NCBI RefSeq assembly: GCF_003432385.1
Contig: NZ_CP031841.1
Span: forward strand, 3,945,579-4,009,578
Reading direction: 5' to 3'
Length of the DNA stretch: 64,000 bases
Origin: Breoghania sp. L-A4
GTDB taxonomy: Bacteria; Pseudomonadota; Alphaproteobacteria; Rhizobiales; Stappiaceae
Shown here: positions 18,113 to 44,076 of the stretch, piece by piece
Numbering within the stretch: the stretch's first letter is position 1
How the letters are laid out: each line of letters begins with the position of its first letter
Notes under the pieces: model-generated
Databases searched by the model: none
What the model saw: only the letters and a program-made list of their open reading frames with translations
What the model was told of the DNA's origin: nothing
Translations under genes and position numbers: made by a program

Positions 18113-18141
18113 GCCTGATTTCCAAATATCCCCCGTTGAAG
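18113..18141 (+). promoter_or_regulatory. ECF-type promoter P1 upstream of the sigma factor gene
   Basis: GCCTGATTTC at 18113-18122, an 11-base spacer, then CGTT at 18134-18137 (CGTTGAAG). The identical block and spacing recur before the flagellin gene (18899) and, with two changes, before flgD (24200). CGTT is a common -10 element of ECF sigma promoters. The sigma start codon is 57 bp downstream, implying autoregulation. Confidence 0.75.
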
Positions 18142-18198
18142 AGGGGAAGTCCGATCCAGCGAGTCGGATGAAATTGCGAATGGCGGGAGAAAGCGATA

Positions 18199-18867
18199 AT
18201 GGCTTTCGCGGAAACGTCCTCGGCGCAGCCTCTTTCGACCGACCTCGACGAGGCCACAACGGCTGCCCGCACACGGGCCAGCAGGACGGAAGGCGCCATG
18301 GCTGCGGCGAGCGACGACGAACTGCTCCATCGTATCGGCCTCGATGACGAGCAGGCCTTCCGCACGCTCACCGAGCGCCACATCGATCGTGGCTATGCGG
18401 TGGCCCTGCGCATCCTGCGCAGCCCCGCGGACGCCGAGGACGTGGTGCAGGACGCGTTTCTGCAGGTCTGGACCAAGCGCGGTCGTTGGCAGCCCGGCAA
18501 GGCCCAGTTCTCCACCTGGCTCTACCGCGTGGTGACAAACCGCTGCATCGACCTACTGCGCAAGCCGCGCACCGAGACCATTGAGCTCCTGCCCGAGATC
18601 GGGGATGGCCGGAGCGACCAGATGCAGACGCTGCTTCGGCACGAGGCGAGCGCCCTGCTGACCGCGGCGATCGCCAAGCTGCCGGACCAGCAGCGCATCG
18701 CGCTGATCCTGTCCTACACCGAGAACATGAGCAACACCGACATCGCCGCGGTGATGGAGACCTCCGTCTATGCGGTTGAGTCCCTGCTCAAGCGCGGCCG
18801 CCAGAAATTGCGCCATATTCTGCGCAACGCGCAAGTCGACGTCTTGTCATTATTAACAGATGATTAA
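18199..18867 (+). CDS. ECF-family RNA polymerase sigma factor
   Basis: A 222-residue sigma-70 family protein with only regions 2 and 4. Region 2 is seen in DDEQAFRTLTERHIDRGY, SPADAEDVVQDAFLQVWT and FSTWLYRVVTNRCIDLLRK; region 4 in IAKLPDQQRIALILSYTENM and the HTH NTDIAAVMETSVYAVESLLKR. An extra 35 residues precede region 2. GGGAGA sits 8 bases before the ATG. It is followed by flagellin, FliD and FliS, then by an anti-sigma-like protein and a CnrX-like sensor, so it looks like the sigma of a split CnrYXH-type cassette that drives flagellar genes. Confidence 0.92.
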   Translation: MAFAETSSAQPLSTDLDEATTAARTRASRTEGAMAAASDDELLHRIGLDDEQAFRTLTERHIDRGYAVALRILRSPADAEDVVQDAFLQVWTKRGRWQPGKAQFSTWLYRVVTNRCIDLLRKPRTETIELLPEIGDGRSDQMQTLLRHEASALLTAAIAKLPDQQRIALILSYTENMSNTDIAAVMETSVYAVESLLKRGRQKLRHILRNAQVDVLSLLTDD

Positions 18868-18898
18868 TCATATGAGTTATTACACATAAGAATACTTC

Positions 18899-18927
18899 GC
18901 CTGATTTCTCTTTTTCTTTCGTTGAAG
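18899..18927 (+). promoter_or_regulatory. ECF-type promoter P2 upstream of flagellin
   Basis: GCCTGATTTC at 18899-18908, an 11-base spacer, CGTT at 18920-18923 followed by GAAGG. Ten plus eight bases match P1 exactly while the spacer differs. The flagellin ATG is at 19005, leaving a leader of about 75 bases that contains a GC-rich hairpin at 18933-18951. Confidence 0.78.
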
Positions 18928-19004
18928 GAACAGGCCCGCAGAACGCGGGTCTTTACCGCGCCGAAAAACCGGGCGTGGGGTCCCAGAGAAAGCAGGAGTC
19001 ATCT

Positions 19005-20567
19005 ATGCCCGTCATTTCAACCAATACCGCCGCCAACACGGCCGTGCGTTACCTCAACATCAACTCCTCCGACCAGTCTGAATCCCTGGCCAAGCTGGCC
19101 AGCGGCTCGCGCATCACCAAGGCATCCGACGACGCGGCCGGCCTCGCCATCTCCACGAAGATCTCATCCGACGTCTCCGCGCTCGAACAGGCGTCCACCA
19201 ACGCCTCGCACGGCATCTCGATCCTGCAGACCGCGGATGGCGGCGCATCCAATGTCAGCGACATTCTCGAGCGCATGAAGACCCTTGCCTCGCAGTCCGC
19301 CTCCGGCACGGTGACGGACACCGAGCGCGCCTACATCGAGGCCGAGTTCGAACAACTCGTGGAAGAAGTCGACGGCATCGCCACATCGACCCGTTACAAC
19401 GGCCAGAGCCTGCTCGACGGTACCAGCACCTTCTCCGATGACACGGCGACGACGGCGGCCACGGCAACCTCGACGATCACCGGCGCGACGGCGGCGACGA
19501 CGGCGCTCAGCGCCAGCATCGCCGGTGCCGACGGCGACACACTGAGCTTCGACATCAACGGCACGGCCATCGACCTGACCGTCGGCGCCACCACCACCGG
19601 CGAGATCACCGTCGACGACATCGTCACCGCGGTGAACGCGGAAAGCGCCACCACTGGCGTGACGGCCAGCACCGACGGCTCCGGCAATCTCGTGCTGGGC
19701 GCCGCTGACGGCGCAGACATCACCGTCGACAACGTCACCGTCGGCGGCTCGAACACCACGCTGACCTCCGCAGATCTGTCGACGCTCGGCATCACCGACA
19801 CCGACAGCGACGACACGGAGACGTTCAGCGCCGCCGCCGCCTTGACGGTCACCGCGGGCGAGGAAGCAAGCTTCGACGTCAACGGCACGACCGTCACACT
19901 TTCCAACGACACCGCCGAAGACGTCGCCTATTCGGCGGCCGACCTGGTCGACGCCGTCAATGCCGCCCTGATCGACGACGGCAACTACGACGTCACCGCC
20001 AGCCTCGACGAGGATACCGGCGAGCTGACCTTCACCAGCCGCGCAACCGGCAGCAAGGCCTCGGTGACGGTCGACAATCTGACCGGCAGCCTGGACGGGT
20101 CGACCGACTTCGCCCTGTCCGATCTCGGCCTGACCACGGGGACCGCCACGGGCACGAGCACGGCGGCCGACACCACCGGCGCGAAAGTCGTCGTCGGCTC
20201 CGATGCCTCCGATACGATCACGCTGACGATCAAGTCGCTGACGTCTTCCGACCTCGGGATCGCGGACCTCGACGTATCGACGCAGGCAGGCGCCGAAGAG
20301 GCTCTCGCCCTCCTCGACAGCGCCATCGACACCGTTTCCAACGCCCGCGCGGAAATGGGTGCGACCATGTCGCGGTTCGAATTCCGCTCGGCCCAGATCG
20401 ATACCAGCATCGAGAATCTGGAAGCCGCGGAATCCGCCATCGCCGATGTCGATATCGCCTCGGAACAGGCAAAGCTCTCCGCCGCCTCGGTGAAGGTTCA
20501 GGCGGCCGTCGCCGCCGCATCGCAGGCCAACGAGATGCCCGAGAACCTGCTGTCGCTGCTGCGATAG
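19005..20567 (+). CDS. Flagellin (lateral-flagellin-like)
   Basis: A 520-residue filament protein. AGGAG lies six bases before the ATG at 19005. The N-terminal D0/D1 part (SLAKLASGSRITKASDDAAG, HGISILQTADGG) and C-terminal D1/D0 part (ISNLEAAESAIADVDIAS-like, ending NLLSLLR) are typical and recall the Azospirillum lateral flagellin. Between them lie two related Ser/Thr/Asp-rich insert domains, each opening with FDxNGT (residues about 180 and 285), of the flagellin hook-IN kind. The protein has no Cys. A partly terminating hairpin region follows, then fliD. Confidence 0.95.
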   Translation: MPVISTNTAANTAVRYLNINSSDQSESLAKLASGSRITKASDDAAGLAISTKISSDVSALEQASTNASHGISILQTADGGASNVSDILERMKTLASQSASGTVTDTERAYIEAEFEQLVEEVDGIATSTRYNGQSLLDGTSTFSDDTATTAATATSTITGATAATTALSASIAGADGDTLSFDINGTAIDLTVGATTTGEITVDDIVTAVNAESATTGVTASTDGSGNLVLGAADGADITVDNVTVGGSNTTLTSADLSTLGITDTDSDDTETFSAAAALTVTAGEEASFDVNGTTVTLSNDTAEDVAYSAADLVDAVNAALIDDGNYDVTASLDEDTGELTFTSRATGSKASVTVDNLTGSLDGSTDFALSDLGLTTGTATGTSTAADTTGAKVVVGSDASDTITLTIKSLTSSDLGIADLDVSTQAGAEEALALLDSAIDTVSNARAEMGATMSRFEFRSAQIDTSIENLEAAESAIADVDIASEQAKLSAASVKVQAAVAAASQANEMPENLLSLLR

Positions 20568-20578
20568 CAGCACTGCGG

Positions 20579-20643
20579 CCGGAGCGCTCCGGAGGGCATC
20601 GCTTGTTCTCGATGTCCCCGGACGGGCTCCAGCCGCCTTTTTC
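20579..20643 (+). terminator. Hairpins between flagellin and fliD (possible attenuating terminator)
   Basis: A perfect palindrome CCGGAGCGCTCCGG at 20579-20592 is followed by a weaker GGCT/AGCC stem ending in CCTTTTT at 20636-20642. It could limit read-through so that flagellin greatly exceeds FliD; strength is uncertain. Confidence 0.35.
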
Positions 20644-20670
20644 AGCATCTTGCCAGCACCACGGTGATCC

Positions 20671-22362
20671 ATGGCCGACGTCTCCGCCACGACCTCCACA
20701 ACCGCGACCGCCGCCACGAACTCGGCGAGCTACACCTATTCGTCGAGCTCCTCCGACATCGACTGGACGGCGCTCGTCGATTCGATGGTTCTCGCCAAGG
20801 AACTCCCGGCCGATACCATCGACGTCAAGATCACCGAGAACGAAACGAAGATCGCCGCCTACCAGGAAATGCAGTCGCTGCTCCAGGCCGTGGCCGACGC
20901 CGCCGACACCATTCGCGGCACCGACAACAGCCTGACGGCAAACGACGATGCGTTTTCGACGCGCGAAGCCTATCTGACCGCGCAGGGCGACGTGGATGCC
21001 GCATCCGCCGTCGTCATAACCGTCGCCAATGATGCCGATATCGCAACCTACGACCTGCAGATCATTCAAATCGCCACGGTCCAGAAGGTCTCCAGCGCCG
21101 CCTACGAGGAAAGCGCGGCCGAACTGGCGCTGGAGGGCACCTTCACGCTGGCCCTGGAGGGCATGGAAAGCGTCGACATCACCGTGACCGCAGACATGTC
21201 GCTGCGCGAGATCGCCGAGCGGATCAACGACAGCACCGACACCACCGGCGTCCAGGCATCGGTGATCAAGGTGTCGGAGAGCGACTATCAGCTGATCCTG
21301 TCGGGCACAGACACCGGCCGCGCAATCTCGATCACCGCCGCCTCGGGCACCGACGTCGCCACGGCGCTCGGCATAACCACGTCCGACGGCGCGTTCGCCA
21401 ACGAGCTGCAGGCCTCACAAGACGCCATCATCCGCCTGGACGGCGTCGAGATCACCCGGGATTCCAACGACATCGACGACGTGATCGACGGCGTGACCTT
21501 CAACCTCTATCAGCCCACGGGCGAAGATGCCTCGATCACGATCGAGGTGTCGCCGGATCTCAACACGATCAAGACGTCGATCACCACCCTCGTGGACGCC
21601 TACAACGCCTATCGCGAATGGGCGATCACCCAGCAGGCAACGGCCTCGGGCGGTGGCGCGAGCGACGACGCGGCCCTGTTCGCCAACGGCACGCTGCGCA
21701 TGGCCAACAGCGCCATCGCCGACGCCCTCAGCACCATCATCGACTCGGAATCGATGGCCCTGCTCGGCCTTACCTACGACAACAACAACATGCTGGAACT
21801 CGACGACAGCACCCTGAACACGGCCCTGCTGAACGATCTCGATCAGGTCGAGAACCTGCTCAACTTCCAGATGACCTCCTCCTCGAGCGACGTCGCCTTG
21901 CTATCGCGCTCGGACTCCATGCCCAGCGAACTGACACTGGACATCGAGGTCGACGAAACCGGCGCCGTGACATCGGTCTCCGTGGACGGTGACGCGTCGC
22001 TGTTCACCATCAACGACGCGCGCATCATCGGCGCTGCGGGCAGCGCCTACGAGGGCATCACTTTTGTTTTCACCGGCGATACGTCGCAGAGCGCCACCTT
22101 GGCGTTCACCGCCGGCATCGTCGAGCGGCTGTTCAACGCCGCGGACGGCTACGCCAACGCCGACGACAGCATCCTGACAAGCGTCATCACGGACCTGTCG
22201 GAGACCAACGAGGATCTCGACGAGCGGGCCAGCGACATCCGAAGCCGTGCCGAAGATTACCGCGATACGCTGACCACCCGCTACGCCGCGTATCAGGCGG
22301 CGATAGAAGAAGCGCAGTCGACGCTCGACTATCTGGAAGCCTATCTCAACCTCGGAGACTGA
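20671..22362 (+). CDS. fliD: Flagellar filament cap protein FliD (HAP2)
   Basis: A 563-residue acidic protein with FliD architecture. An N-terminal segment DIDWTALVDSMV and a coiled stretch (VKITENETKIAAYQEMQSLL) come first. Insert domains with the FliD-typical LREIAERINDSTD and LRLDGVEITRDSNDIDDVI-like region follow, and the C-terminal coiled coil (SDIRSRAEDYRDTLTTRYAA) ends in LDYLEAYLNLGD. It caps the filament and folds exported flagellin. fliS follows after 3 bp. Confidence 0.92.
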   Translation: MADVSATTSTTATAATNSASYTYSSSSSDIDWTALVDSMVLAKELPADTIDVKITENETKIAAYQEMQSLLQAVADAADTIRGTDNSLTANDDAFSTREAYLTAQGDVDAASAVVITVANDADIATYDLQIIQIATVQKVSSAAYEESAAELALEGTFTLALEGMESVDITVTADMSLREIAERINDSTDTTGVQASVIKVSESDYQLILSGTDTGRAISITAASGTDVATALGITTSDGAFANELQASQDAIIRLDGVEITRDSNDIDDVIDGVTFNLYQPTGEDASITIEVSPDLNTIKTSITTLVDAYNAYREWAITQQATASGGGASDDAALFANGTLRMANSAIADALSTIIDSESMALLGLTYDNNNMLELDDSTLNTALLNDLDQVENLLNFQMTSSSSDVALLSRSDSMPSELTLDIEVDETGAVTSVSVDGDASLFTINDARIIGAAGSAYEGITFVFTGDTSQSATLAFTAGIVERLFNAADGYANADDSILTSVITDLSETNEDLDERASDIRSRAEDYRDTLTTRYAAYQAAIEEAQSTLDYLEAYLNLGD

Positions 22363-22365
22363 CCA

Positions 22366-22803
22366 ATGACCTGCGCAATGACCCATGCCATTTCCGCCTA
22401 TCGGCAGGCCGCCACGGCGGTGCCGCCGGTGACCGCCGTGGTGCGTCTGTACGACGAAGCCATCAATGCCATCCACCGCACGATCAAAGCGCACGAGGCC
22501 GGCCGTTTCGATGAGGCCTATGCCAACGTTCAGCACGCGGTAGCCATTCTGCGCGGCTTGCGCCAGGCGCTTGACCTCGAAAGAAGCGGCCTGGTCGGAC
22601 GGCAGTTGAATCAGATGTACTCAAGCAACATATTAGCGCTGACCAACAGCATCGGCAAAGCGAATGCCGCAGCGCGTCTTCGCAAACTCATCGAGGGCCT
22701 CATCGATGTGCGCGACGCGTGGGCGAGCATGACGCCGATCAAGCCGCGGGCCGAGGAAAGCGGCGCCGACTATTCGGATTTCGATAGGCCAACCGCCGCA
22801 TGA
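22366..22803 (+). CDS. fliS: Flagellar export chaperone FliS
   Basis: A 145-residue helical protein matching FliS: ISAYRQAATAV at the start, VVRLYDEAINAIHRTI in helix 2, and LNQMYSSNILALTNSIGKAN further on. FliS binds the flagellin C-terminus and prevents early polymerisation. It starts 3 bp after fliD and 62 bp before the anti-sigma-like gene. A Met at 22378 is an alternative start. Many Alphaproteobacteria rely on FlbT/FlaF instead, so its presence marks a separate filament system. Confidence 0.85.
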   Translation: MTCAMTHAISAYRQAATAVPPVTAVVRLYDEAINAIHRTIKAHEAGRFDEAYANVQHAVAILRGLRQALDLERSGLVGRQLNQMYSSNILALTNSIGKANAAARLRKLIEGLIDVRDAWASMTPIKPRAEESGADYSDFDRPTAA

Positions 22804-22886
22804 TCCACGGCGTCACATAGACACCCGCCGCGAAGGCATGTAATTTCCACCGCAGGCGCCACACCGTGGCGACCGTCATTAACACC

Positions 22887-23402
22887 ATGAAAACCATGAG
22901 AATCGAAGACTTCGAAGATATTCTCGATCGTCGAGGAAGCGATCTCGACACATGGTCGAAGAAGGAGGCCGCGGCGGCCAGGGCTTTGCTCGAGCACTCG
23001 CGCGAGGCCCGTGCGCTGCTTGAGGAATCGCATGCCCTGCAACAGGCGTTCGCCCCCCAGGCGCCCGTGCGCGCGCCCGCCGGCCTCGCCGATCGCATCG
23101 TTCGCGAGGCGCTTGCCTCCTCGCGCGCACGCGAACCGATAACGCAAACCGCGGCAACGCCGCCGCAGCCGGCCCGTTTCACCGCCGGATCGCTTGTGCG
23201 GTCGCTTGCCCGGTCACTTGAATCGCTTCGGGACGGCGGGGCGGCGGTTTTTCAAACCGACACGATGCTGCGGCCGGCCGCCGTTCTGATGGTCTGCTTC
23301 GTCTCAGGCATGATCGCCAGCTATGCGAACGTCGATGAGACAAGCAATGTTCTTTCTGAAGTATCCCTGCCGACGTTTTTCACATACTTCGATCTGTCAT
23401 AG
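22887..23402 (+). CDS. Putative membrane-anchored anti-sigma factor (CnrY-position protein)
   Basis: About 171 residues. The N-terminal helical region (FEDILDRRGSDLDTW, ARALLEHSREARALLEES) has the pattern I associate with alphaproteobacterial proteins encoded between an ECF sigma and a periplasmic heavy-metal-sensor-like gene. A Pro/Ala linker follows, and one transmembrane helix (PAAVLMVCFVSGMIAS) lies near residues 135-155 with a short periplasmic tail. This layout suits sequestration of the sigma factor at 18199. The start is uncertain (GTG 22866, ATG 22887 or 22896). The assignment is by architecture and context, not a family hit. Confidence 0.6.
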   Translation: MKTMRIEDFEDILDRRGSDLDTWSKKEAAAARALLEHSREARALLEESHALQQAFAPQAPVRAPAGLADRIVREALASSRAREPITQTAATPPQPARFTAGSLVRSLARSLESLRDGGAAVFQTDTMLRPAAVLMVCFVSGMIASYANVDETSNVLSEVSLPTFFTYFDLS

Positions 23403-23413
23403 CGGATACAAGA

Positions 23414-23905
23414 ATGCCCCTTAAGACCGCAAGCCGCCGCTTCATCGTTCTCGCGAACGTCCTGTTCCTGTCGCTCGGCGTGAATTTGTTCCTGGCGGGC
23501 TGGCTTGTCGGCGGGTCGTTCGACCGGCCGCCCCCTGGACCGCCGAACTTCTTCCGCGACTTCGAAACCCGCCTCAAGGGCCAGCTTTCCGAGCGTGGCC
23601 AGGTCTTGCTGCAGGAAGGAATCGACGATCTTCGCGCCGAGTTTGAACGATTCAGGCCCGCGGCCGACGTCAGCCGCAAGAATCTGGCGAAACTGATCGC
23701 GGCCCCGGCGTTCGACCCTGACACGTTGCGGGCAACCCTTCAGGCGGCGATCGACAGCCGCAACCAGCTTGACGCCAGGTCGCTGAACCGGATCACCGCG
23801 CTGCTGGTACAATTCGACGCCAAGGACAGGGCGGCCATCGCGGACTTCATCCGGCGCACGCCGGGACCCGGACCGCAGCATTCCCAAGACACCGACCCGA
23901 AATAA
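23414..23905 (+). CDS. Periplasmic sensor of the CnrX/ZraP/CpxP-like type
   Basis: A 163-residue protein with a short cytoplasmic start, one N-terminal transmembrane anchor (IVLANVLFLSLGVNLFLAGW), a Pro-rich stretch, and a helical periplasmic hairpin (LKGQLSERGQVLLQEGIDDL, ALLVQFDAKDRAAIADFIRR) as in periplasmic heavy-metal sensors. The metal-binding His/Met/Cys residues of CnrX or ZraP are absent; the only His is in the C-terminal tail, so it probably senses something else. It follows the anti-sigma-like gene by 11 bp, which supports a Y-X pair regulating the ECF sigma. Confidence 0.65.
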   Translation: MPLKTASRRFIVLANVLFLSLGVNLFLAGWLVGGSFDRPPPGPPNFFRDFETRLKGQLSERGQVLLQEGIDDLRAEFERFRPAADVSRKNLAKLIAAPAFDPDTLRATLQAAIDSRNQLDARSLNRITALLVQFDAKDRAAIADFIRRTPGPGPQHSQDTDPK

Positions 23906-24199
23906 ACGCGCCTCGCCGCCACCGCGTGAAAACCGGACGCACCGCCGCAAGCGCTGCCCGCGCCGCCGACGCGAGCGAACGCCTGACACCGTGCGCGGGC
24001 CAAGTCCGAGGACTGGCGCGCGCCTGCCGCGCCGCCATATATTCGCGCGACACAGGCCTGCACGAGGAAGCCGCCCCGATATCAGTGCGGCCGGCCGCAA
24101 ACACTTCGCGCCAACTGCGATAGTCTTGCGTGCGTTCCATGAATGTAGAAATATTTGCCTATGGGAAATATTTACCTAGTATTTATTTTAAATTAATCC
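23906..24199. other. Intergenic region before the flgD operon
   Basis: No gene is seen in this stretch. The first half is GC-rich with no recognised motif. The last 70 bp are AT-rich (GGGAAATATTTACC and an A/T run) and lead into the ECF-type promoter at 24200. Confidence 0.5.
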
Positions 24200-24224
24200 G
24201 CCTGATCTGAGCTTGCCGTCCGTT
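24200..24224 (+). promoter_or_regulatory. ECF-type promoter P3 upstream of flgD
   Basis: GCCTGATCTG at 24200-24209, 11-base spacer, CGTT at 24221-24224. It matches P1 and P2 in 8 of 10 upstream bases, in the CGTT and in spacing. The flgD start is 88 bp downstream. It makes flgD-flgL a likely second operon of the same sigma factor. Confidence 0.72.
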
Positions 24225-24312
24225 TCTTATTCACAAGGGACGACCGCACGCCAGTAATGGCCAAACAAGTCGCCCCACCCAATTCGCTCATTCGACGCAA
24301 GGTGGGAAGCCG

Positions 24313-24975
24313 ATGACCATATCAACTGTTAGCAGTGCCGCGGCGACCGCGACCACCACGAGCAGCACCAGCACTTCATCGCTCGGACTGACCAGCAACG
24401 ACTTTCTGACGCTGATGCTGGAGCAGATCCAGAACCAGAACCCGCTCGACCCGACCGACACCGACTCCTACATGGAGCAACTGGTTTCCTATGGCAGCTA
24501 CGACACGCTCAACAGCATCAACGACCAGATCACCAGCCTGACGACATCGATGGAGTCGATGATCTCCAACACCGGGCTGGGATATGTCGGCAAGACGGTG
24601 GAGGCCAACGGCAACACCAACACGCTGACCGACGGATCCGCCACCTACGGCTATTCGCTGGACGAAGACGCCAGCAGCGTTTCCATCTCGATCCTCGACG
24701 AAAGCGGCGCCACGGTCTGGACCGGCAGCGGCGAGACCGAGGCCGGCTCCCACAGCTTCGTCTGGGACGGCACGACCACCGACGGCACTCAGCTTGAAGA
24801 CGGCGGCAACTACACCATCGCGGTCGAGGCGCTCGACGCGAATGGCGATTCCATAACCGGCAGCACGACGGTGACCGGCGTGGTGACCGGCATCGACGTG
24901 GAGAACGACGAGTCTGTCCTGACTCTCGGCGACAGCACCATTTCCATCGACGACGTCATCAGCATCAAGGCATAG
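24313..24975 (+). CDS. flgD: Flagellar hook capping protein FlgD
   Basis: A 220-residue hook-assembly scaffold. The conserved N-terminal FlgD block is clear (LTSNDFLTLMLEQIQNQNPL, then DTDSYMEQLVSY), followed by the FLIPR-like beta domain (VWTGSGETEAGSHSFVWDG). It heads the second flagellar operon, with the ECF-type promoter upstream and flgE 10 bp after its stop. Confidence 0.93.
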   Translation: MTISTVSSAAATATTTSSTSTSSLGLTSNDFLTLMLEQIQNQNPLDPTDTDSYMEQLVSYGSYDTLNSINDQITSLTTSMESMISNTGLGYVGKTVEANGNTNTLTDGSATYGYSLDEDASSVSISILDESGATVWTGSGETEAGSHSFVWDGTTTDGTQLEDGGNYTIAVEALDANGDSITGSTTVTGVVTGIDVENDESVLTLGDSTISIDDVISIKA

Positions 24976-24985
24976 GGAGCGTACC

Positions 24986-26245
24986 ATGAGTCTGACTGGA
25001 GCCCTGAATTCAGCCGTTTCCTCTCTTTATGCCCAGAGCCAGGCGTTGGCGACGGTCGCCGACAATCTGGCGAACTCGGGCACCACCGCCTACAAGGCGA
25101 ACTCCACGTCCTTTGAAAGTCTTGTCGCCAGCGCATCGAGTTCGGGAAGCAGCGGCGGCGTTTCCGCGACAACGCGCGCCAACAACACGGCGCAAGGCCT
25201 GCTCGTATCCTCAAGCAGCGACACCTCGCTGGCCATCGACGGAAGCGGCTACTTCGTTGTCTCCTCGGATATCGACGGCAGCGACGCGAACTACACGCGC
25301 AATGGCGAATTCTCCGTCGATAGCGACGGATATCTGGTCAACAACGGCAACTATCTGCTGGGCTGGGAAACCGACGCCGACGGCAATGTGATCGGCGGCA
25401 CAAGCGAGACATCCCTGGTCGCCATCGACACCGATGCGATCCAGAGCTCGGTCGGCGCCACGACCGAAATCGATATCCAGGCCAACCTGCCCGCCGATGC
25501 CGAGATCGGCAGCACCTATGAGACAACCCTCGAGGTCTACGACTCGCTCGGATCCGGCAGCACCGTAACGGCCACCTGGGAAAAGACCGCCGAGAACACC
25601 TGGGAACTGAGTTTGGCGGATCCCGTGTTGTCCTCCACCGGCGTCGCCAGCGGAACCACATCCAGCGACCCCATCGAGATCACATTCAACTCTGACGGAA
25701 CCCTTGCCAGCACCAATCCGGCGGCGGCGGAACTGACGATCAGCGGCTGGACCACGGGCGCCGCCGCCAGTACGATTTCACTGTCATTGGGCACCACCGG
25801 AAAGACCGATGGGCTGACGCAATACGCATCCGACAGCAGCACTCCCAGCATCACCGGCCAGACCGTCACCCAGAACGGTATCGCTTACGGCAACCTGACC
25901 GGCATCGAAATTTCGGACAACGGATCGGTGATCGCCAACTTCGACAATGGCGAAGCCCAGACCATCTACAAGATCCCCATCGCCACCTTCGCCAATGCCA
26001 ACGGCCTGACGGAAATGAGCAACGGCGTCTATGCCCGCAGCACGACGTCCGGCAGCAGCGTCCTGCAATTCGCCGGCGCCGGAGGCGCGGGCGAGATCAA
26101 CGGCGGATGGCTTGAATCGAGCACCACCGATACCAGCAACGAATTTTCCAGCATGCTCGCCGCGCAGCAGGCTTATTCCGCCTCCTCGCAGATCATGTCG
26201 ACCGCTAGCGACATGTTCGACACGCTGATCAACTCGGTCCGCTGA
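24986..26245 (+). CDS. flgE: Flagellar hook protein FlgE
   Basis: A 419-residue rod/hook-family protein: N-terminal LYAQSQALATVADNLANSGT, FlgE-type centre (IDGSGYFVV, YTRNGEFSVDSDGYLVN) and C-terminal EFSSMLAAQQAYSASSQIM, TASDMFDTLINSVR. Its length is normal for a short FlgE. It lies between flgD and a small gene, in the expected order for an accessory hook/filament operon. Confidence 0.93.
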   Translation: MSLTGALNSAVSSLYAQSQALATVADNLANSGTTAYKANSTSFESLVASASSSGSSGGVSATTRANNTAQGLLVSSSSDTSLAIDGSGYFVVSSDIDGSDANYTRNGEFSVDSDGYLVNNGNYLLGWETDADGNVIGGTSETSLVAIDTDAIQSSVGATTEIDIQANLPADAEIGSTYETTLEVYDSLGSGSTVTATWEKTAENTWELSLADPVLSSTGVASGTTSSDPIEITFNSDGTLASTNPAAAELTISGWTTGAAASTISLSLGTTGKTDGLTQYASDSSTPSITGQTVTQNGIAYGNLTGIEISDNGSVIANFDNGEAQTIYKIPIATFANANGLTEMSNGVYARSTTSGSSVLQFAGAGGAGEINGGWLESSTTDTSNEFSSMLAAQQAYSASSQIMSTASDMFDTLINSVR

Positions 26246-26247
26246 CA

Positions 26248-26520
26248 ATGACCCAACCTGACCCTGATCCGAGATTTCACAAACTGAAGCGGCTCTGCGC
26301 CGAGGCCAGAGCCAATTCTTCCGACGGCGCCGCCGGCCGGCTCAAGGCTCTGGCACTGCACGATGAAGTGAACCGTCTCGCGGCCGAACTTGCCGCGCGG
26401 CGCGCGGACATCGGCCGGCAATTGTTCGGCTCGTTCAACGCCTCACGCGCCGCATCCAGCTACGCCCACGTGCAGGCCCTGCCGCTGCCCGCCCAGACGC
26501 GCAGAGGACCGAAACAATGA
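26248..26520 (+). CDS. Small uncharacterised protein in the flagellar operon
   Basis: A 90-residue, basic, mainly helical protein that I do not recognise. It starts 2 bp after flgE and overlaps the next gene by 4 bp (ATGA), so it is co-translated with the hook genes. It has no signal peptide or transmembrane helix. The helical LALHDEVNRLAAELAARRAD stretch could be a chaperone-type or regulatory surface; a FlgM-like or export-chaperone role is possible but unsupported. Confidence 0.7.
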   Translation: MTQPDPDPRFHKLKRLCAEARANSSDGAAGRLKALALHDEVNRLAAELAARRADIGRQLFGSFNASRAASSYAHVQALPLPAQTRRGPKQ

Positions 26521-26972
26521 CCCCCGTCCCGCCGATCGAAACCGTGGACGAAACCGTCGCGCGCATGATCGATGTCGCCGACAGGCTTCTGGCGCTGGCG
26601 CATGACGAAAACCGGCGCCTGGCCGCCGGAATGACCATGCCGCTTGATGATATTGTCGCCCAGAAGCATGAACTCGCCGAGCAATTCAGCCGCTGGATGC
26701 GACAGATCAAGACGCAGCAGCTGCTGCTGATCCAGGCGTCCCCGGAACTGGCGACCCAATTGCTGGAACGCGGCCGCCGGCTTGGACAGGCTCTGTCGGA
26801 AAACGCCGCGGAACTGAACAAGGCCATGGCCGCGAGCCAGCGCCGCGTGGATGCGATCATGCGGGTGGTGCGCGAGGAGTCAAAGCCGCCGCCGGTGTAT
26901 GGCGTCAACGGACGCTACGCGTCGCCTGTCGTCAACCGGACGGTCTCCCTGCATCCCGGATGCAAGGCGTAA
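26517..26972 (+). CDS. flgN: FlgN-like flagellar export chaperone
   Basis: A 151-residue helical protein: a long first helix (ETVARMIDVADRLLALAHDE) and second helix (VAQKHELAEQFSRWMRQIK) with the spaced Leu/Lys pattern of FlgN-type chaperones, and a Pro-rich, basic C-terminal tail ending near VNRTVSLHPGC. FlgN chaperones the hook-filament junction proteins FlgK and FlgL, which are encoded immediately downstream. Similarity is by pattern and position. Confidence 0.65.
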   Translation: MTPVPPIETVDETVARMIDVADRLLALAHDENRRLAAGMTMPLDDIVAQKHELAEQFSRWMRQIKTQQLLLIQASPELATQLLERGRRLGQALSENAAELNKAMAASQRRVDAIMRVVREESKPPPVYGVNGRYASPVVNRTVSLHPGCKA

Positions 26973-26990
26973 TCCGGTGAAGGGAGCAAC

Positions 26991-28370
26991 ATGACCTCGC
27001 TCAGCGTCGCCAGCCAGATCGCCACGAGTTCACTGACCGCGACCCAGGTCCAGTTGTCGGTTGCCTCCGCCAACATCGCCAACGCGGACACCGAAGGCTA
27101 CACACGCAAATCCGCGACCCAGACGTCCCAGACCACGGCGGGCGTTGGCACCGGTGTCTCCATCTCCGGCATCACCTCCAAGGTGGACGCCATCCTGCTG
27201 GCCAACCTGAACGAGGCGACGTCGAAACAGGCCGCCGCATCGACGACTGCCGACTATCTCGACCGTCTGCAATCCCTGTTCGGTTCCACATCAGGTGACG
27301 ACGGCACTGGCAGCGCGCTCTCCAACACGCTTGCGGATGTGGAAAGCGCGCTGTCGGAACTTGCCTCGACGCCCGAAAGCACGAGCGCGGCCGCCAGCGC
27401 CCTCAGCGAGCTCGACACACTGAGCGCCCAGTTGCGCGAGTTGTCGTCGGATATCCAGGACCTGCGCGCGGAGGCTGACGCGGCAATCGCCGCATCCGTC
27501 GACAGCGCCAATGAAGCCATCACCACGATCGATGCGCTCAACGAGCAGATTGTCGCCGGCAAGGCGCGCGGCGAATCCACCGCGGATCTGGAAGACCAGC
27601 GCAATCAGGCGCTTCAGACGCTTTCGGAATCGCTCGGCGTTTCAAGCCTCGTTTCCGACAATGGATCGATGAAGGTCTACACGACCTCGGGTCAGGTCCT
27701 GGTTGACGGCTCCGCGCACTATCTGTCCTTCGACAGCGCAAGCGTCATGACGTCCGAACGGAGCTACGACGGCACGGACGCCGGACTCAGCGGAATCACG
27801 CTCAACGGCACCGATATCGCCGCCAGCATCTCCAACGGCGAGATCAAGGCGCTTCTGAGCGTGCGCGACGAAACCCTGCCGGCCGCGCAGGACATGATCG
27901 ACACGCTGGCGAGCACCGTGATTGAAACCGTCAACGCCGTGCGCCCCGATCTGCTGACCGGGACGGATGCGTCGGACATCGCGGTCTCCGCCGACCTCCT
28001 CGCCGATCCCGGCAGCCTGCTCGACGACACGGATGCCGCGGCGATCGCCACGGCCCTTCTCGCGGCGCTGCAAGAGGACAGCAGCTTCGAGGCCTCGGGA
28101 AGCCTCGCGGCGACGCAGGGCAGCATGGCGGACTACGCCACCGACATTCTCTCCGTGGTCGTCGGCCAGGCAAACAGCGCCGCGGCCCGTCTGGAAACGG
28201 CCGACAGCCGGCTGACGTCCATATCCGACGCCATCACCTCGGACTACGGCGTGAACCTCGACGAGGAAACCGCGCGGCTGTCTGAACTCTCACAACTCTA
28301 TTCAACCTCGGCGCAGGTTCTCAGCACCATCCAGGAGATGTTCGATGCCCTGCTGGCGGCGGTAAGTTGA
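26991..28370 (+). CDS. flgK: Flagellar hook-associated protein FlgK
   Basis: A 459-residue HAP1. The N-terminus (ATQVQLSVASANIANADTEGY) and C-terminus (LDEETARLSELSQLYSTSAQ, IQEMFDALLAAV) are characteristic, and the central helical region with NEAITTIDALNEQIVAGKA and DLEDQRNQALQTLSE is the usual FlgK D1. It is preceded by GAAGGGAG and follows the FlgN-like gene by 18 bp. It forms the first junction ring between hook and filament. Confidence 0.93.
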   Translation: MTSLSVASQIATSSLTATQVQLSVASANIANADTEGYTRKSATQTSQTTAGVGTGVSISGITSKVDAILLANLNEATSKQAAASTTADYLDRLQSLFGSTSGDDGTGSALSNTLADVESALSELASTPESTSAAASALSELDTLSAQLRELSSDIQDLRAEADAAIAASVDSANEAITTIDALNEQIVAGKARGESTADLEDQRNQALQTLSESLGVSSLVSDNGSMKVYTTSGQVLVDGSAHYLSFDSASVMTSERSYDGTDAGLSGITLNGTDIAASISNGEIKALLSVRDETLPAAQDMIDTLASTVIETVNAVRPDLLTGTDASDIAVSADLLADPGSLLDDTDAAAIATALLAALQEDSSFEASGSLAATQGSMADYATDILSVVVGQANSAAARLETADSRLTSISDAITSDYGVNLDEETARLSELSQLYSTSAQVLSTIQEMFDALLAAVS

Positions 28371-28381
28371 GGTAACCAACC

Positions 28382-29278
28382 ATGGTGATGCGTGTCGCAA
28401 CCTTCGGGCTGACCTCCAGCCTGCTCTCGCAATCGCTCGCGACCCAGGCGAAGCTCGCGGAGAAGACCAACCAGCAGGTCTCCGGCGTCAATTCGACCGA
28501 CTATGCGGGGCTGGGAACCGACGCCACCCGGATGGTCGGGCTCGAGGTCGCGGTCACGCGCTCGGAGGCTTATCAGTCGGCCGGCACGCTGGCCAACACG
28601 CGTATCGAGGCCATGTATTCCGCCACCGATTCCATGGTCGACCTGTTGACCCAAATGCGCGCGGAGGTGTCGGCGGCGTCCCTGGGCGAGGACAGCACCA
28701 CCCTGCAGTCGACCGCCGCGAGCCTGCTTGAGGAATTCACCGCGCTGATCAACACCCAAAGCCAGGGCCGCTATCTGTTCGCGGGCAGCATGACCGGCGA
28801 GCCGCCCGCCTCAACAGAAGGATACGAGGCGACGTCGCTGACCGACGTCAACACCGGCTACTACTCCGGCGACGAGAACACGGCTTCGGTCGCCGTCAGC
28901 GAAAGCTGGACAATTGACTACGGCATCAGCGGCGGCAACGACGCCCTGGAGAAGGCGATGCGGGCGCTGTCCTACCTCGCCAACGCGGATACGCTCGACA
29001 GCCAGAGCCTGACGGCCGCCGCCGACCTGCTTGTCGAGGCCCAGGACGGCATTTCGTCGCTGCAGGTCGGCCTCAGCCTCGCCGCCTCCTCGATAGAACG
29101 CGCCATCACCTCCGAAGAGGAGTTCACCGCCACGGCGGAAGAGCTGATCGCCGAGATAAACACCAGCGACACCGCGGTGCTCGCGGTGATGATCACCAGC
29201 TACAACACTCAGCTGGAAGCCAGCTATTCCGCCCTTGGAACGCTGTCGAGCCTCAGCCTGATGGACTATCTGCGATAG
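28382..29278 (+). CDS. flgL: Flagellar hook-associated protein FlgL
   Basis: A 298-residue flagellin-like junction protein: an N-terminal helix with KTNQQVSGVNSTDYAGL, the FlgL-type QSQGRYLFAGSMTGEPP followed by YYSGDENTASVAVSESWTID, and a C-terminal helix ending LGTLSSLSLMDYLR. It is shorter than the flagellin and lacks the large variable domain. It is the last gene of the flgD operon and converges on udh with a 12-bp gap. Confidence 0.9.
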   Translation: MVMRVATFGLTSSLLSQSLATQAKLAEKTNQQVSGVNSTDYAGLGTDATRMVGLEVAVTRSEAYQSAGTLANTRIEAMYSATDSMVDLLTQMRAEVSAASLGEDSTTLQSTAASLLEEFTALINTQSQGRYLFAGSMTGEPPASTEGYEATSLTDVNTGYYSGDENTASVAVSESWTIDYGISGGNDALEKAMRALSYLANADTLDSQSLTAAADLLVEAQDGISSLQVGLSLAASSIERAITSEEEFTATAEELIAEINTSDTAVLAVMITSYNTQLEASYSALGTLSSLSLMDYLR

Positions 29279-37256: not shown

Positions 37257-38405
37257 ATGCTCACACGCAGAGCCGCCTTGATGGGAGCCGCCAGCCTCGC
37301 CGCCGCTCCCTTCGTCATCCAAGCCGCGCAAGGCGAGGAAATCATGGACACGTCGATGGCCCCGCCGGCCGATCTGTCCACGCTGAAACGCGTCAAGCGC
37401 AAGCTGGTGAAGCCGCCCTTCGTGCACGAGCACGAGCAGGTCGCAACCGCCGAGCCGCAGATCGTCGAATTCGAGATGAGGATCGTGGAAAAGGAAGTGC
37501 AGGTCGCCGACGACGCCTACCTGCAGGCCATGACCTTCAACGGGTCGATCCCCGGCCCGCTGATGGTGGTGCATGAAGGCGATTACGTGGAGCTGACTCT
37601 CTACAACTCGCCCGAGAACCTGTTGCAGCACAACATCGACTTCCACGCCGCCACCGGCGCGCTGGGCGGCGGTTCACTGACACTGATCAACCCGGGTGAG
37701 AAAACCGTTCTGCGCTTCAAGGCGACCCGGCCCGGCACCTTTGTGTATCACTGCGCGCCCGGCGGCCCGATGATCCCCTGGCACGTCGTCTCCGGCATGT
37801 CAGGCGCCATCATGGTCCTGCCGCGCAAGGGCCTCACCGACCATACGGGCGCACCGGTCAGCTATGACCGCGTCTACTACATCGGCGAGAACGACTTCTA
37901 CATCCCCAAGGACGACAGTGGCGAATACAAGCGCTTCGACGACGCCGGCGACAGCTATGCCGATACGCTCGAAGTGATGAACGGACTGATCCCCACGCAT
38001 GTCGTCTTCAACGGCAAGGTCGGGGCGCTCACCGGCGACAACGCGCTGCAGGCCAGCCAGGGCGAACGCGTCCTGTTCGTCCACAGCCAGGCGAACCGCG
38101 ACAGCCGGCCCCATCTGATCGGCGGCCACGGCGATCTGGTCTGGGAGCACGGCAAGTTCAACAACCCGCCCGACCGGGACTTTGAAACCTGGTTCATCCG
38201 CGGCGGTTCGGCGGGAGCAGCGCTCTACGAGTTCCTGCAGCCCGGCGTCTACGCCTACGTGAACCACAATCTGATCGAGGCGGTGAACCTCGGCGCGACG
38301 GCGCATGTGCTCGTGGAGGGCAAATGGAACAACGATCTGATGGAACAGGTCGTCGCCCCCACCGAATACAACGCCGCGTTCGAAGGCAAGACGGCTCTGC
38401 CCTGA
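37257..38405 (+). CDS. nirK: Copper-containing nitrite reductase
   Basis: NirK reduces nitrite to nitric oxide in the periplasm. The 382-residue precursor has a twin-arginine signal (TRRAALMG) and two cupredoxin domains. Type 1 copper ligands appear in LQHNIDFH and [21 protein letters not shown], type 2 ligands in DFHAATG, YHC and [10 protein letters not shown]. The catalytic Asp is in NIDFHA and the catalytic His in [10 protein letters not shown] hairpin terminator separates it from nirV. Confidence 0.96.
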
Positions 38406-38432
38406 GCAGGATCGACAGCAGTGCGCATGATG

Positions 38433-38462
38433 GGGGCGGCCGATTTCTCGGCTGCCCCTTTT
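38433..38462 (+). terminator. Rho-independent terminator after nirK
   Basis: GGGGCGGCCGA and TCGGCTGCCCC form an 11-bp stem (one G-T pair) with loop TTTC, followed by TTTT. Located between nirK and nirV, it should reduce nirV expression relative to nirK. Confidence 0.7.
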
Positions 38463-38483
38463 GTCAATTGGAAGGGGCTTGAA

Positions 38484-39308
38484 ATGTCATCCCAACGCCT
38501 GGCTGGTGCCGCCCTGGCGGTCGTCGCGACAGCCGCCGCCCTCACCGTATGGAGCGCGACGCGGCCCGCCATCACCGAGCTGCCGGAAACCGTCGTGATC
38601 GAGCCCGGCCCGTACACCTACCGGCCGGCCGGAACCTACCGCTATTATGGAAAGCTGGTCGACGCGCCTTTGCAGACCGAGGTCGCGGACCAGCCGCTCG
38701 AGATCATGACGTTTCAGGTCAGCCGCGCGGAATACGCCGCCTGCGTGGCCGATGGCGCGTGCGAGGCGTCGCGTGTCTCGCAAGGCGGCAGCCCCACGAG
38801 CGCGGACCTGCCGCAAACCGAGGTCAACTGGTACGACGCGACCGCCTATGCGGCGTGGTTTTCGCGCCAGACCCGGCAGCACTGGCGTCTTCCCGATGAC
38901 CGCGAGTGGCAACGCGCGGCGGCCGAGCGGTTTTTCGAGGAGAAGATCGTCGCCGAGGACGAGGACGATCCCGCGCAACGCTGGCTCGCCGCCTATGAAC
39001 GCAACGTCGCCACCCGCGGCACCACCACGCCCGAGCCGCAACCGCGCGGAACCTTTGGGACGAACTCGCACGGCGTCGCCGATATCGCCGGCAACGTCTG
39101 GGAGTGGACCACGACGTGTGTGGCGAACTCGATCGTGACGGGCGACGGAGCGCCGCCGGTCAAGCAGCAGGAATACTGCGGAGCCCACATCGCGGAAGGA
39201 AAACACCGTGCGATCATTATCGATCTGGTGCGCAACCCCAAGGTCGGCGGCTGCGCTGCCGGCCTGCCCGCGGACTACGTCGGCTTCCGGCTCGTACGCG
39301 CCAGATAG
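38484..39308 (+). CDS. nirV: NirV, formylglycine-generating-enzyme-like protein
   Basis: A 274-residue protein with an N-terminal signal or anchor (LAGAALAVVATAAALTVW) and an FGE-sulfatase/ergothioneine-synthase-like domain: RAEYAACVADGACE, VNWYDATAYAAWFSRQT, WRLPDDREWQRAAAERF, GVADIAGNVWEWT and VGFRLVRAR. This is the usual nirK partner NirV, whose role is not established. The start at 38484 has GGAAGGGG upstream. Its 3' end overlaps the convergent nnrS gene by 34 bp. Confidence 0.9.
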   Translation: MSSQRLAGAALAVVATAAALTVWSATRPAITELPETVVIEPGPYTYRPAGTYRYYGKLVDAPLQTEVADQPLEIMTFQVSRAEYAACVADGACEASRVSQGGSPTSADLPQTEVNWYDATAYAAWFSRQTRQHWRLPDDREWQRAAAERFFEEKIVAEDEDDPAQRWLAAYERNVATRGTTTPEPQPRGTFGTNSHGVADIAGNVWEWTTTCVANSIVTGDGAPPVKQQEYCGAHIAEGKHRAIIIDLVRNPKVGGCAAGLPADYVGFRLVRAR

Positions 39309-40454
39309 GGACCGATGCGCAGCGCGAAGACCGAGAAGCCCGCGACCCACAGAAGCGCCGCGAGCCACAGCCCGGAGACCCCTGCAAGCACCAGCTCCGG
39401 AAAGCAGACCCGGACCAGCGCGGCCAGAAACACCATGGCGGCGGCGGCCGTCAGAGCCGGCCCCGCCACCAGGGCCCGTCCGGTATGTCCCAGCGACGCG
39501 CGCATCATCACCGCGACGGTCATGCCGCCGATGGCGCCGATACCGAGCAGATGAACGCCAACGGCGGCGGCGGCCAGACCGAAGGCCGCGGCCGCGTTCG
39601 CCGCAAGGCCGAGCGGCACGAATCCATAGGCGACATGCAACATCAGCAGCAGCGGCGACGGTCCTGTCCGGCCGCCCTGCCAGCGGCTCAGACGAATCGC
39701 ATGCAGCACGGCGGCAACAAGCAACAGCCCGCCGACGGCTCCGCCTTCGGGATGAAACGCCCAGGCCAGCAGCGCAACGCCGCCCGCGACCAGACAGGCC
39801 GCGTCGAAGCGGCCGACCGGGGCGGGCAGATGCTCGGGTGTGCGTTTCGCCAGCCAGTTGCGGGTGAAACTCGGGATGATCCGTCCGCCGATCAGCGTGA
39901 TCAGGAAGACGACAACCGCCAGCCCCAGCCTGCGGCCGGTATCGGCGGAACCAAAGGTCATCGCCTCCAGATGAAACAGCAGATTGGCGCCCAGCAGCAG
40001 CCCACCGGCACCACCACCATCAGGTTTCGCCAATTGCGCCCGGCCACGATCTCCACCAGCACCATTGCGACAATCGCGGCCAGAAAACCCACATCGATCA
40101 GCATCACCGCGAAGGGCCCAAGTCCGAAGACGCCCGCGACCGCCAGCCGCCCGCGATCCAAAGCGACAGCAGCAGGACCAAAGGCCAGCCGCGCTTGGGC
40201 ATCCGTCCCGTCCAGTTGGGAATGGCCGTGAACAGGAACCCGGCGATCACGGCCGAGGCGTAGCCGAAGATCATTTCATGGCTGTGCCAGTCGGTCGCAC
40301 TCAGGGGACCGGACAGCGTCAGTACGCCGTCGAGCACCAGCATCCAGATGACAATGGCGGCGATCGCAAAGAGCGCCGCGGCGAGAAAAAACGGCCGAAA
40401 ACCATAGCTGAACAATACCGGACCGCGATAAGGCTTCTGTCTCTCGCTCGCCAT
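39275..40454 (-). pseudogene. nnrS: NnrS family protein, frameshifted twice
   Basis: NnrS is a polytopic heme/copper membrane protein linked to NO metabolism. Three frames together encode a full-length NnrS: the N-terminal FSYGFRPFFLAAALFA and WHSHEMIFGYASAVIAGFL with IPNWTGR, a middle part (LAVAGVFGLGPFAV), and a C-terminal part from NLLFHLEAM to RIGPYLAR. The frame changes near 40150 and 40015 each look like one G lost from a GGGG run. Restoring both gives about 394 residues. The start at 40454 has AGGAG six bases upstream. Confidence 0.8.
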
Positions 40455-40547
40455 GTGCATCTCCTGTTTTCAAAGACAGCGGGCGACGCCCGCTCCGGCG
40501 CCGCCCCGTTTCAGTCCGTTTAATCGTCGGCGGTCCGACCGCTGGTC

Positions 40548-40979
40548 CTACTTGACCTCGGCGAAGATCGCCTCAAACCGTTTCTTGGCCTTGCCCGTCT
40601 GCTTGACGGCCTTGGCGGCGTCGAGATTGGAGGCGTCGCCGACCTGGATCAGGGCGACCATACCCATGCCGTAGTGGGGCGTGCACTTGAGGCCATACAG
40701 GCCTTCCGTGTCGACGGTGAGCTCGAAGTCCTTGCTCATCTTGCTCTTGAACGCGGCGACGCCGTCCGGGAGCATATCCTTGATGCCTTCGACATTGTGG
40801 CCCTTGTCAACCGAGACGAAATGGATCGTGTCGCCGGGCTGAGCCGCAACATAGGCAGGCTCGAACACCATCGAACCGGCTTCGCCCTTGTTGAGCATCT
40901 GTACTTCATGGGTTTCGGCGAATGCCACCCCGGTCATCAGGGCAAGAGCGGCGGCCACGGCGAGAGTTCTGCTAAGCAT
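40548..40979 (-). CDS. Pseudoazurin
   Basis: A periplasmic blue copper protein that donates electrons to NirK. The 143-residue precursor has a signal peptide cleaved after FAFAE-like VAFA, and a cupredoxin fold with ligands His61 (DKGHNVE), Cys99 and His102 (KCTPHYG) and Met107, spaced exactly as His40/Cys78/His81/Met86 of mature pseudoazurins. It is divergent from nnrR with a TTG-N8-CAA box between them. Confidence 0.95.
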
Positions 40980-41050
40980 CGGAAATCCCTTTCTTTGCTT
41001 CCGGTGTATGTTGTGTGCAGCCGTTATGCTCTACTAATGGGCGGAACACA

Positions 41051-41064
41051 TTGCGCTGCAACAA
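41051..41064. promoter_or_regulatory. NnrR/FNR-type box between pseudoazurin and nnrR genes
   Basis: TTGCGCTGCAACAA fits TTG-N8-CAA. It lies 72 bp upstream of the pseudoazurin start and 16 bp upstream of the nnrR start, so it could activate the first and modulate the second. Confidence 0.5.
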
Positions 41065-41079
41065 ACTCTGGACGGGAAT

Positions 41080-41775: not shown

Positions 41776-41980
41776 GTCCAGCGGCCGCGCGCAACTCGGC
41801 GCGAAACGCCTCTTCATCAAGTTCGTATTCCTCACACGCGTCGATGATCGTGTGAAAGGGAGCAATCGGGCAGCCGAAGCACAGCATTCTGTGCCGGATG
41901 AACACCGCCGGCGTCTCGGGCCAAACCTTGAAGAGCCGCGTTAGCGGCAGGTCCGGGTCATCGATGTTGGATACAGTCAT
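41756..41980 (-). CDS. DUF1858 domain protein (hybrid-cluster-associated redox disulfide type)
   Basis: A 74-residue protein with the DUF1858 core: LTRLFKVWPETPAVF, then MLCFGCPIAPFHTI carrying the Cys-X2-Cys pair, then ACEEYELDEEAFRAEL. Such proteins accompany NO and nitrogen-oxide genes; function is unproven, a redox-active disulfide is likely. AAGGAGG five bases before the ATG at 41980 fixes the start. Confidence 0.85.
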   Translation of the reverse strand: MTVSNIDDPDLPLTRLFKVWPETPAVFIRHRMLCFGCPIAPFHTIIDACEEYELDEEAFRAELRAAAGLNPPRR

Positions 41981-42192
41981 CGCGCCCTCCTTTGCACAAT
42001 TACGCGCCACCCAGTGGACATCCAGAAAAAGTGAGAAACGGAGTTCGTCCGGCCCCGCATCGTGTCCGTGAGCCTACCCGCGGCTTGATCGGCAGTGAAG
42101 GCGCTCGCGAACCTCGTATCGCGACCGGACGCCGTGCCATCGGCTGCGTCTGCGGTCATCTGCGTGTATGGCACGAAGTTTCGTCCGCCTCT

Positions 42193-42206
42193 TTGTGCTG
42201 CGACAA
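42193..42206 (+). promoter_or_regulatory. NnrR/FNR-type box upstream of norC
   Basis: TTGTGCTGCGACAA fits TTG-N8-CAA and ends 61 bp before the norC ATG, matching the nirK arrangement. Confidence 0.6.
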
Positions 42207-42266
42207 CCTTCGGGCTGCCATCCATGGTAGCTTGACGGATCCGCAACAACGATCAGGTCCGGCACC

Positions 42267-44076
<1,810 letters not shown>

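Follow-up and report, generated by a model that had tools for sequence, protein, structure and literature searches.

A predicted membrane-wired variant of the RpoE6-type accessory flagellar cassette in Breoghania sp. L-A4

The 64,000-nucleotide window of Breoghania sp. L-A4 analysed here (NZ_CP031841.1, positions 3,945,579 to 4,009,578, part of a single 5.03-Mb contig) carries, between 18199 and 29278, twelve + strand genes in the order ECF (extracytoplasmic function) sigma, fliC, fliD, fliS, Y, X, flgD, flgE, orf90, flgN, flgK and flgL, with Y being a predicted anti-sigma factor and X a predicted periplasmic protein. The locus is probably (about 0.6) a membrane-wired variant of the RpoE6-type accessory flagellar cassette of Alphaproteobacteria, which would place a second hook and filament on housekeeping basal bodies. 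This explanation was favoured because of the synteny across many genera, the sigma clade, the match of Y to Asf6, the conserved promoter-like motif and the single basal-body set accompanied by two FlgE. Further reasons were the finding of FliD only in the cassette and of X only with a transmembrane (TM) Y, and the filaments of the Azospirillum brasilense Δasf6 mutant (PMC12826043, accessible part).

The layout as such is already published. Gupta et al. (J Bacteriol, December 2025; PMC12826043), who described RpoE6 and Asf6 in A. brasilense Sp7, give in the accessible part of the paper the same gene order for R. palustris BisA53, Bradyrhizobium and M. gryphiswaldense, with 'hp, hp' in the places of Y and X. 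The claim of the original prediction that no system with this layout had been described was therefore dropped. New, as far as the literature was searched, are the membrane-wired variant, the promoter-like sites found upstream of flgD and of sigma, and the composition of the cassette as a hook and filament set lacking a basal body.

The proposed gene order from sigma to flgL, on one strand and with small gaps, was confirmed by open reading frames and by Pfam and NCBIfam profiles, with small corrections: the flagellin more likely starts at ATG 19005, and the intergenic gaps are short except for 407 bp between X and flgD, and this gap contains a promoter-like site. Y was searched against the own genome and 120 relatives and sigma against the own genome and 60 relatives. 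Sigma orthologues of 54–68% identity with Y located about 4.0–4.8 kb away were detected in eight genomes (G001, G002, G004, G005, G019, G023, G084 and G091), and the Y search gave additional matches beyond these. Of 16 other genomes examined at the locus, 15 carried the flagellar cassette and 14 of the 15 were colinear, hence the arrangement is not a chance one. In G084, the flgD–flgK genes were inverted and placed on the opposite side of sigma, and G106 had a plain sigma–Y pair with no flagellar cassette. The fliC gene adjoined sigma in 13 of the 15 cassette genomes; G014 was split by contig ends and in G054 sigma was outside the examined stretch.

The best 80 sigma loci from a named collection were split into 29 with a sigma identity of at least 52% and 51 with at most 47%. 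Among the former, fliC was located beside sigma in 28, flgD–flgE–flgK were found downstream in 23 and flgL as well in 22 (L114 ends before flgL). L088 and L109 were cut by contig ends and L110 was sigma alone. None of the 51 loci of lower identity contained the cassette. The neighbourhood search that had been suggested thus showed that the order is not unique to this sequence. The 29 loci come from Pannonibacter, Roseibium, Bradyrhizobium, Rhodopseudomonas, Rhodoplanes, Bosea, Pleomorphomonas, Magnetospirillum, Telmatospirillum and metagenome-assembled genomes (MAGs) named at higher rank. Three of them, L089 and L094 (Rhodopseudomonas) and L115 (Telmatospirillum), retained sigma–fliC–fliD–fliS–Y, and no flgD–flgL genes were detected downstream (tblastn, 1e-2); the hook half may be dispensable or relocated there.

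The sigma gene (18199..18867, +, 222 aa) was recognized as an RpoE6 orthologue by Pfam Sigma70_r2/r4_2, by NCBIfam and by its clade placement. Its score was 292 bits for NF009190, below the cut-off of 303, and 217 bits for NF004113, above the cut-off of 208. The window sigma shares 49% identity with a plasmid-borne sigma of A. brasilense across 80% of its length, and in a midpoint-rooted tree, from which G001 was left out, the cassette clade included both Azospirillum sigmas with a support of 100/97. A class-level survey gave a sigma match at 1e-45 in 8 of 385 genomes, the own genome included. A cassette-clade sigma (56% identity) was also found in Rhodoplanes tepidamans (L110:9977-10558); neither Y, X nor flagellar genes were found alongside, and the upstream gene resembled, by eye, an RND efflux pump. 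The locus of the same-genus draft G001 (L067) showed frame breaks in sigma, fliC, fliD, fliS, flgE and flgK, and FlhA of this draft contained stops, which reflects either sequencing error or decay. In G054 (L076, 16565-19918), the cassette held two tandem flagellin copies.

Three promoter-like sites were identified on the + strand of the window. P1, GCCTGA-N15-CGTTGAAG, was located upstream of sigma (18113..18141, weight-matrix score 26.1), P2 upstream of fliC (18899..18927, score 26.1), at the position that the published RpoE6 promoter also occupies with respect to fliC, and P3 upstream of flgD (24200..24228, score 20.9). The weight matrix was obtained from 36 exact sites, each genome being left out of its own training and the own genus being left out for P1–P3. 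The threshold of 11.3 was the 99th percentile of 580 shuffles, the highest of which scored 17.1. Sites over the threshold were present upstream of sigma in 31 of 39 carriers (median score 16.7), upstream of fliC in 32 of 40 (median 19.0) and upstream of flgD in 33 of 37, including the inverted flgD of G084 (median 17.6). In the control regions upstream of the internal genes fliD, fliS, flgE, flgK and flgL, only 1 of 190 exceeded the threshold, with 16.1 as the highest control score. The next-best site in the 144 kb of the own genome scanned scored 17.1.

Written as CGCC[AT]G-N16 or 17-CGT[GT], the motif agreed in core and spacing with the A. brasilense promoter CGCCAG-N16-CGTGAG, mapped by 5' RACE and deletion (PMC12826043, accessible part). 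The fliC site of the window reads CGCCTG-N16-CGTT, and the element was also found upstream of flgD in both Azospirillum loci. Because of this finding and of the conserved site upstream of flgD, the hook operon (flgD onward) is very likely part of the sigma regulon, and the sigma of this lineage is probably self-activating, as judged from the motif. The proposed control of flagellin and of the flgD operon by sigma is very probable in view of the motif conserved upstream of sigma, fliC and flgD and of the published observation that RpoE6 drives the fliC2 promoter (PMC12826043, accessible part).

Several points limit the motif evidence and weigh against the favoured explanation. Some positive sites scored below the highest control or the highest shuffle, and the weak positives are less sure since these values overlap them. 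The counts include close relatives (many Bradyrhizobium) and are not independent. The matrix gave the Azospirillum promoter sites no score of at least 10.5, so the agreement there is one of core and spacing only, and rpoE6 of A. brasilense has no promoter of its own (PMC12826043, accessible part). In further stretches of the own genome, mostly chosen for pattern matches, a site scoring 26.0 was located within a coding gene, which means that single sites are not proof. Another site, scoring 23.7, was found about 360 bp upstream of the main flgE (genome 3463013-3463037, -; about L171:3010-3038) and was not conserved, as the 1.1 kb preceding the main flgE in 12 other genomes (10 carriers and 2 non-carriers) contained no site scoring at least 9. 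It could be explained either by chance or by a species-specific link between the two hook operons, and the main hook operon is not claimed as a target of this sigma.

The pattern GCCTGAT-N14/15-CGTT occurred at 16 sites in the own genome and at 2 in the reversed control; in other genomes the reversed control was close, e.g., 5 against 4 in G061. A genome-wide regulon was not derived from the motif because of these close control counts and the high-scoring coding site. On the + strand of the Azospirillum loci, 2 of 4 matches to the loose pattern in L167 and 1 of 4 in L168 were located away from the cassette promoters. The A. lipoferum locus had a further promoter-like site (L168:4154) just upstream of the small gene preceding flgK. 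In the Hyphomicrobiales UR115 cassette (L169), the best sites of the motif scan scored 15.3 and 12.8.

The flagellar inventory of the own genome comprised one FlhA, one FliF, one FlgF-like, one FlgG-like and two FlgE, with FlgF, FlgG and FlgE distinguished by length and match pattern. The single FlhA, FliF, FlgF-like and FlgG-like genes were all located more than 100 kb from the cassette, which consists of hook and filament genes and contains no basal-body genes. With one basal-body set and two FlgE, a second hook, if assembled, must therefore use the shared rod/basal body and export apparatus. The suggestion that the filament set is accessory was supported. Its description as lateral-type was abandoned on account of these single genes, and for the same reason a separate lateral flagellum with its own rod, ring and export apparatus was rejected.

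In two sets of genomes, at least one FlhA was present in 16 of 16 and in 23 of 23 (the second set includes the non-carrier L110). FlhA was single in 17 of 38 carriers, and all 17 had exactly one FliF. In twelve of them, FlgF and FlgG were single and FlgE was present twice; G121 also had a short additional fragment. Further FlgE-like matches were observed in G122, G139 and G142, G005 had additional FlgF and FlgG and may thus contain a larger part of a second flagellar system, and no FlgE was found in the cassette stretch of G143. FliD was found only in the cassette in all seven single-FlhA genomes tested, and none was found in the non-carrier G006. The cassette supplies a FliD-capped hook–filament set to cells with no other detected FliD. 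The main flagellum of the own genome is represented by several tandem flagellins (about four by matches) at genome 3449408-3456192; its genes occupy two or more separate regions (3.44-3.46 Mb and 3.83 Mb).

Such an inventory could also be left by a lost second (lateral) flagellum of which the basal-body genes are gone. Several relatives have further flagellar systems and some loci are without the hook half. Such an origin is nevertheless very improbable, since the gene set, order and promoter-like sites are common to many families, the cassette remains separate and retains its own FlgE even in genomes that have two or three FlhA, and among the carriers examined broken frames throughout were met only in the draft G001.

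The Y gene (22866..23402, +) encodes a protein of 178 aa with an Asf6-like N-terminal domain and one predicted TM segment (a TM segment being called at a 19-residue hydropathy mean of at least 1.6). The hydropathy peak of Y was 1.82 at residue 138. No Pfam family was assigned to it (best 0.19, below the cut-off), and a Y profile matched Asf6 of A. brasilense and A. lipoferum with 70 and 75 bits. Y was present in all 40 cassettes examined. In ten of them it was TM-bearing (the window, G001 with exactly 1.60, G002, G004, L089, L090, L092, L102, L104 and L107), and in 30 it looked soluble, as does the 98-aa Asf6, with 83-189 aa (the longest values being subject to uncertain starts). The description of Y as anti-sigma-like was borne out by this homology, as a two-hybrid assay showed an interaction of Asf6 with RpoE6 (PMC12826043, accessible part). 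Pfam gave scattered weak matches for 39 Y-type proteins: DUF3379 in four (best 0.0013), RseA_N in one (0.034) and ABATE in one. The Y profile had five PDB matches at E up to 10, none of them usable, the best (5e-4) being to a 37-residue stretch of an engineered cytochrome trimer, and CnrY was absent from the five.

The X gene (23414..23905, +) encodes a predicted membrane-anchored periplasmic protein of the Spy/CnrX superfamily, with 52.5 bits for PF13801 Metal_resist (cut-off 29.2) and a hydropathy peak of 2.30 at residue 10. A profile of 22 X proteins, five from cassettes and 17 from outside, mostly from plain trios, matched the Spy, CnrX and NccX structures with E of 6e-6 to 2e-4, which upheld the proposed CnrX-like character. 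X was found in 6 of the 40 cassettes (the window, G001 with a broken frame, G002, G004, L092 and L107). It was confined to cassettes with a TM-bearing Y, being present in 6 of these 10 and in none of the 30 with a soluble-looking Y; these are related genomes and not independent. X was not found in 34 of the 40 carriers, and so it is not essential to the system. The TM-plus-X state was observed in three separate places on the sigma tree. As plain sigma–Y(TM)–X trios sit beside distant sigma homologues, an ancestral trio with repeated loss, in which the TM-only forms are intermediates, was favoured, with gains as the alternative. The suggested envelope signal is plausible only for the TM-Y/X variant. 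In the window, X may read the envelope state in a Spy/CpxP-like manner.

A metal-responsive system of the CnrYXH type that captured flagellar genes would account for the ECF sigma, the TM-bearing Y, the X matching CnrX and NccX structures and the plain sigma–Y–X trios of distant homologues. The X cores of four other cassettes contain 0-4 His and 2-6 Met, and metal binding is thus possible there. The X core of the window, in contrast, has 0 His, 0 Met and 0 Cys, whereas CnrX signalling needs Met123 (PMC7689651, accessible part), and no metal-efflux family was found among the 32 window proteins scanned. CnrX-type metal sensing by the window X is unlikely because of this core, and capture of flagellar genes by a metal-responsive system is scarcely probable.

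According to the favoured explanation, Y would hold sigma at the membrane and the periplasmic X would modulate Y according to the envelope state. The freed sigma would then fire three promoters, those of its own gene, of fliC–fliD–fliS–Y–X and of flgD–flgL. The cassette products would be exported by the one housekeeping apparatus and would assemble, on housekeeping basal bodies, into a second type of hook, junction and filament with a FliD cap. This set would take the place of the main propeller, for which a FliD was not detected. More tentatively, with somewhat less than even odds, the system could be regarded as an exchangeable propeller in which one basal body accepts two distinct hook–junction–filament sets, only one of them FliD-capped. 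An envelope-sensing sigma/anti-sigma/periplasmic module would choose between the sets; its sensing arm (the TM segment of Y and X) would have been repeatedly lost or gained, leaving a soluble, internally controlled switch in most carriers.

The cassette might instead add a minor flagellin and spare parts to an ordinary filament, the extra hook genes being redundant or rarely built. This corresponds to the authors' reading that FliC2 makes up a minor part of the polar flagellum in A. brasilense; loss of FliC2 had no effect on swimming in plates, and ΔrpoE6 cells also had thinner filaments (PMC12826043, accessible part). The two Rhodopseudomonas loci retaining the filament half with no detected hook half agree with it as well. 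Set against this are the cassette FlgD, FlgE and FlgK, which are kept and are only 32-34% identical to the other copies found, the separate conserved promoter-like site of the hook operon, and the Δasf6 filaments, which were thinner, had no main flagellin band and, according to the authors, likely consisted almost only of FliC2 (PMC12826043, accessible part). The minor-flagellin model was considered unlikely. The authors' reading and the thin ΔrpoE6 filaments nonetheless count against a second hook–filament, as do the failure to find X in most carriers and the kind of evidence available: the explanation rests for this organism on sequence, we infer the second hook on a shared rod, and the membrane coupling of Y and X is predicted from hydropathy and co-occurrence.

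A literature search for a second or alternative hook found nothing matching, which is not proof of absence. Should the shared basal body carry a second hook, the hook would, like flagellin, be a regulated and swappable part, and two sets would have to be accommodated by rod–hook joining, hook-length control and export specificity. Comparing the TM-Y plus X variant with the soluble Asf6 offers a natural way to learn which signal such flagellar ECF sigmas read.

The remaining genes of the cassette, all on the + strand, were assigned as follows. The flagellin gene fliC (19005..20567; Flagellin_N 130.7 bits, Flagellin_C 67.4 bits) encodes 520 aa from the ATG at 19005, which is the more likely start, with GTG 18975 also open. 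The filament cap gene fliD (20671..22362; FliD_N/C) is the sole FliD_C match in the genome and is followed by the flagellin chaperone gene fliS (22366..22803; PF02561, 66.4 bits). The hook cap gene flgD (24313..24975; FlgD domains in Pfam) and the hook protein gene flgE (24986..26245; FlgE domains in Pfam, NCBIfam) have second copies at about 3.838 Mb and 3.461 Mb, respectively, each 34% identical to the cassette copy. The product of orf90 (26248..26520) matched no Pfam/NCBIfam family over the cut-off; L167 and L168 have a small hypothetical protein in its place, a likeness of position. The flgN-like chaperone gene (26517..26972) scored 29.2 bits for PF05130, just below the cut-off of 30.5. 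The junction protein gene flgK (26991..28370; TIGR02492, 304 bits) has a second copy near 3.46 Mb with 32% identity. The last gene (28382..29278) was called flgL, a junction protein, from its position and from NF006489, a 'flagellin' model (245 bits, cut-off 217); TIGR02550, the flgL model, gave 67 bits, below its cut-off of 127. Elsewhere in the window, the region 37257-46850 encodes a copper nitrite reductase, nirK (TIGR02376, 528 bits), an Fnr/Crp-type regulator (all matches below cut-offs) and a weak GvpN/MoxR-type ATPase (72 bits, cut-off 267), which suggests a denitrification cluster.

Among known systems, the window shares with RpoE6–Asf6 an orthologous sigma, the Asf6-homologous domain in Y, the clustering with fliC, fliD, fliS, flgD, flgE, flgK and flgL, and the promoter core and spacing. 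The Azospirillum clusters end with sigma and the 98-aa Asf6, and no X comes after them, whereas in the window sigma comes first with its own motif, Y has 178 aa and a TM segment, and X is present. The window is therefore a variant of the RpoE6–Asf6 cassette. With the X profile, no X was found in the Bradyrhizobium, Rhodopseudomonas and Magnetospirillum loci examined (the three genomes of the paper aside). A soluble anti-sigma of about 98 aa with no X is an Azospirillum trait, not known to be a defining one.

The CnrYXH system has a contiguous Y-X-H order upstream of efflux genes. In the window, sigma ends about 4 kb upstream of Y and the neighbours are flagellar, so the order and the targets differ, and the locus, which the original prediction had called CnrYXH-like, is not supported as a true CnrYXH. 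What is shared with CnrYXH of Cupriavidus metallidurans (PMC7689651, accessible part) is an ECF sigma, a membrane anti-sigma and a periplasmic helical CnrX/Spy partner, the window X being a member of the CnrX superfamily with a predicted N-terminal TM segment. Metal sensing of the CnrYXH kind was judged unlikely for want of ligands in the window X, even though some His and Met occur in the X of other cassettes.

RpoE10 (ECF41), which controls lateral flagella in Azospirillum (as cited in the accessible part of PMC12826043), is likewise an ECF sigma acting on flagellar genes; it differs in belonging to another ECF group, in having no canonical anti-sigma and in its lateral flagella. The sigma-28/FlgM system also sets a sigma and anti-sigma pair over filament genes. 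The window sigma, however, fits ECF models and not FliA-type ones, Y and its relatives match no FlgM model, and the TM segment of Y together with X would point to an envelope cue and not to FlgM export.

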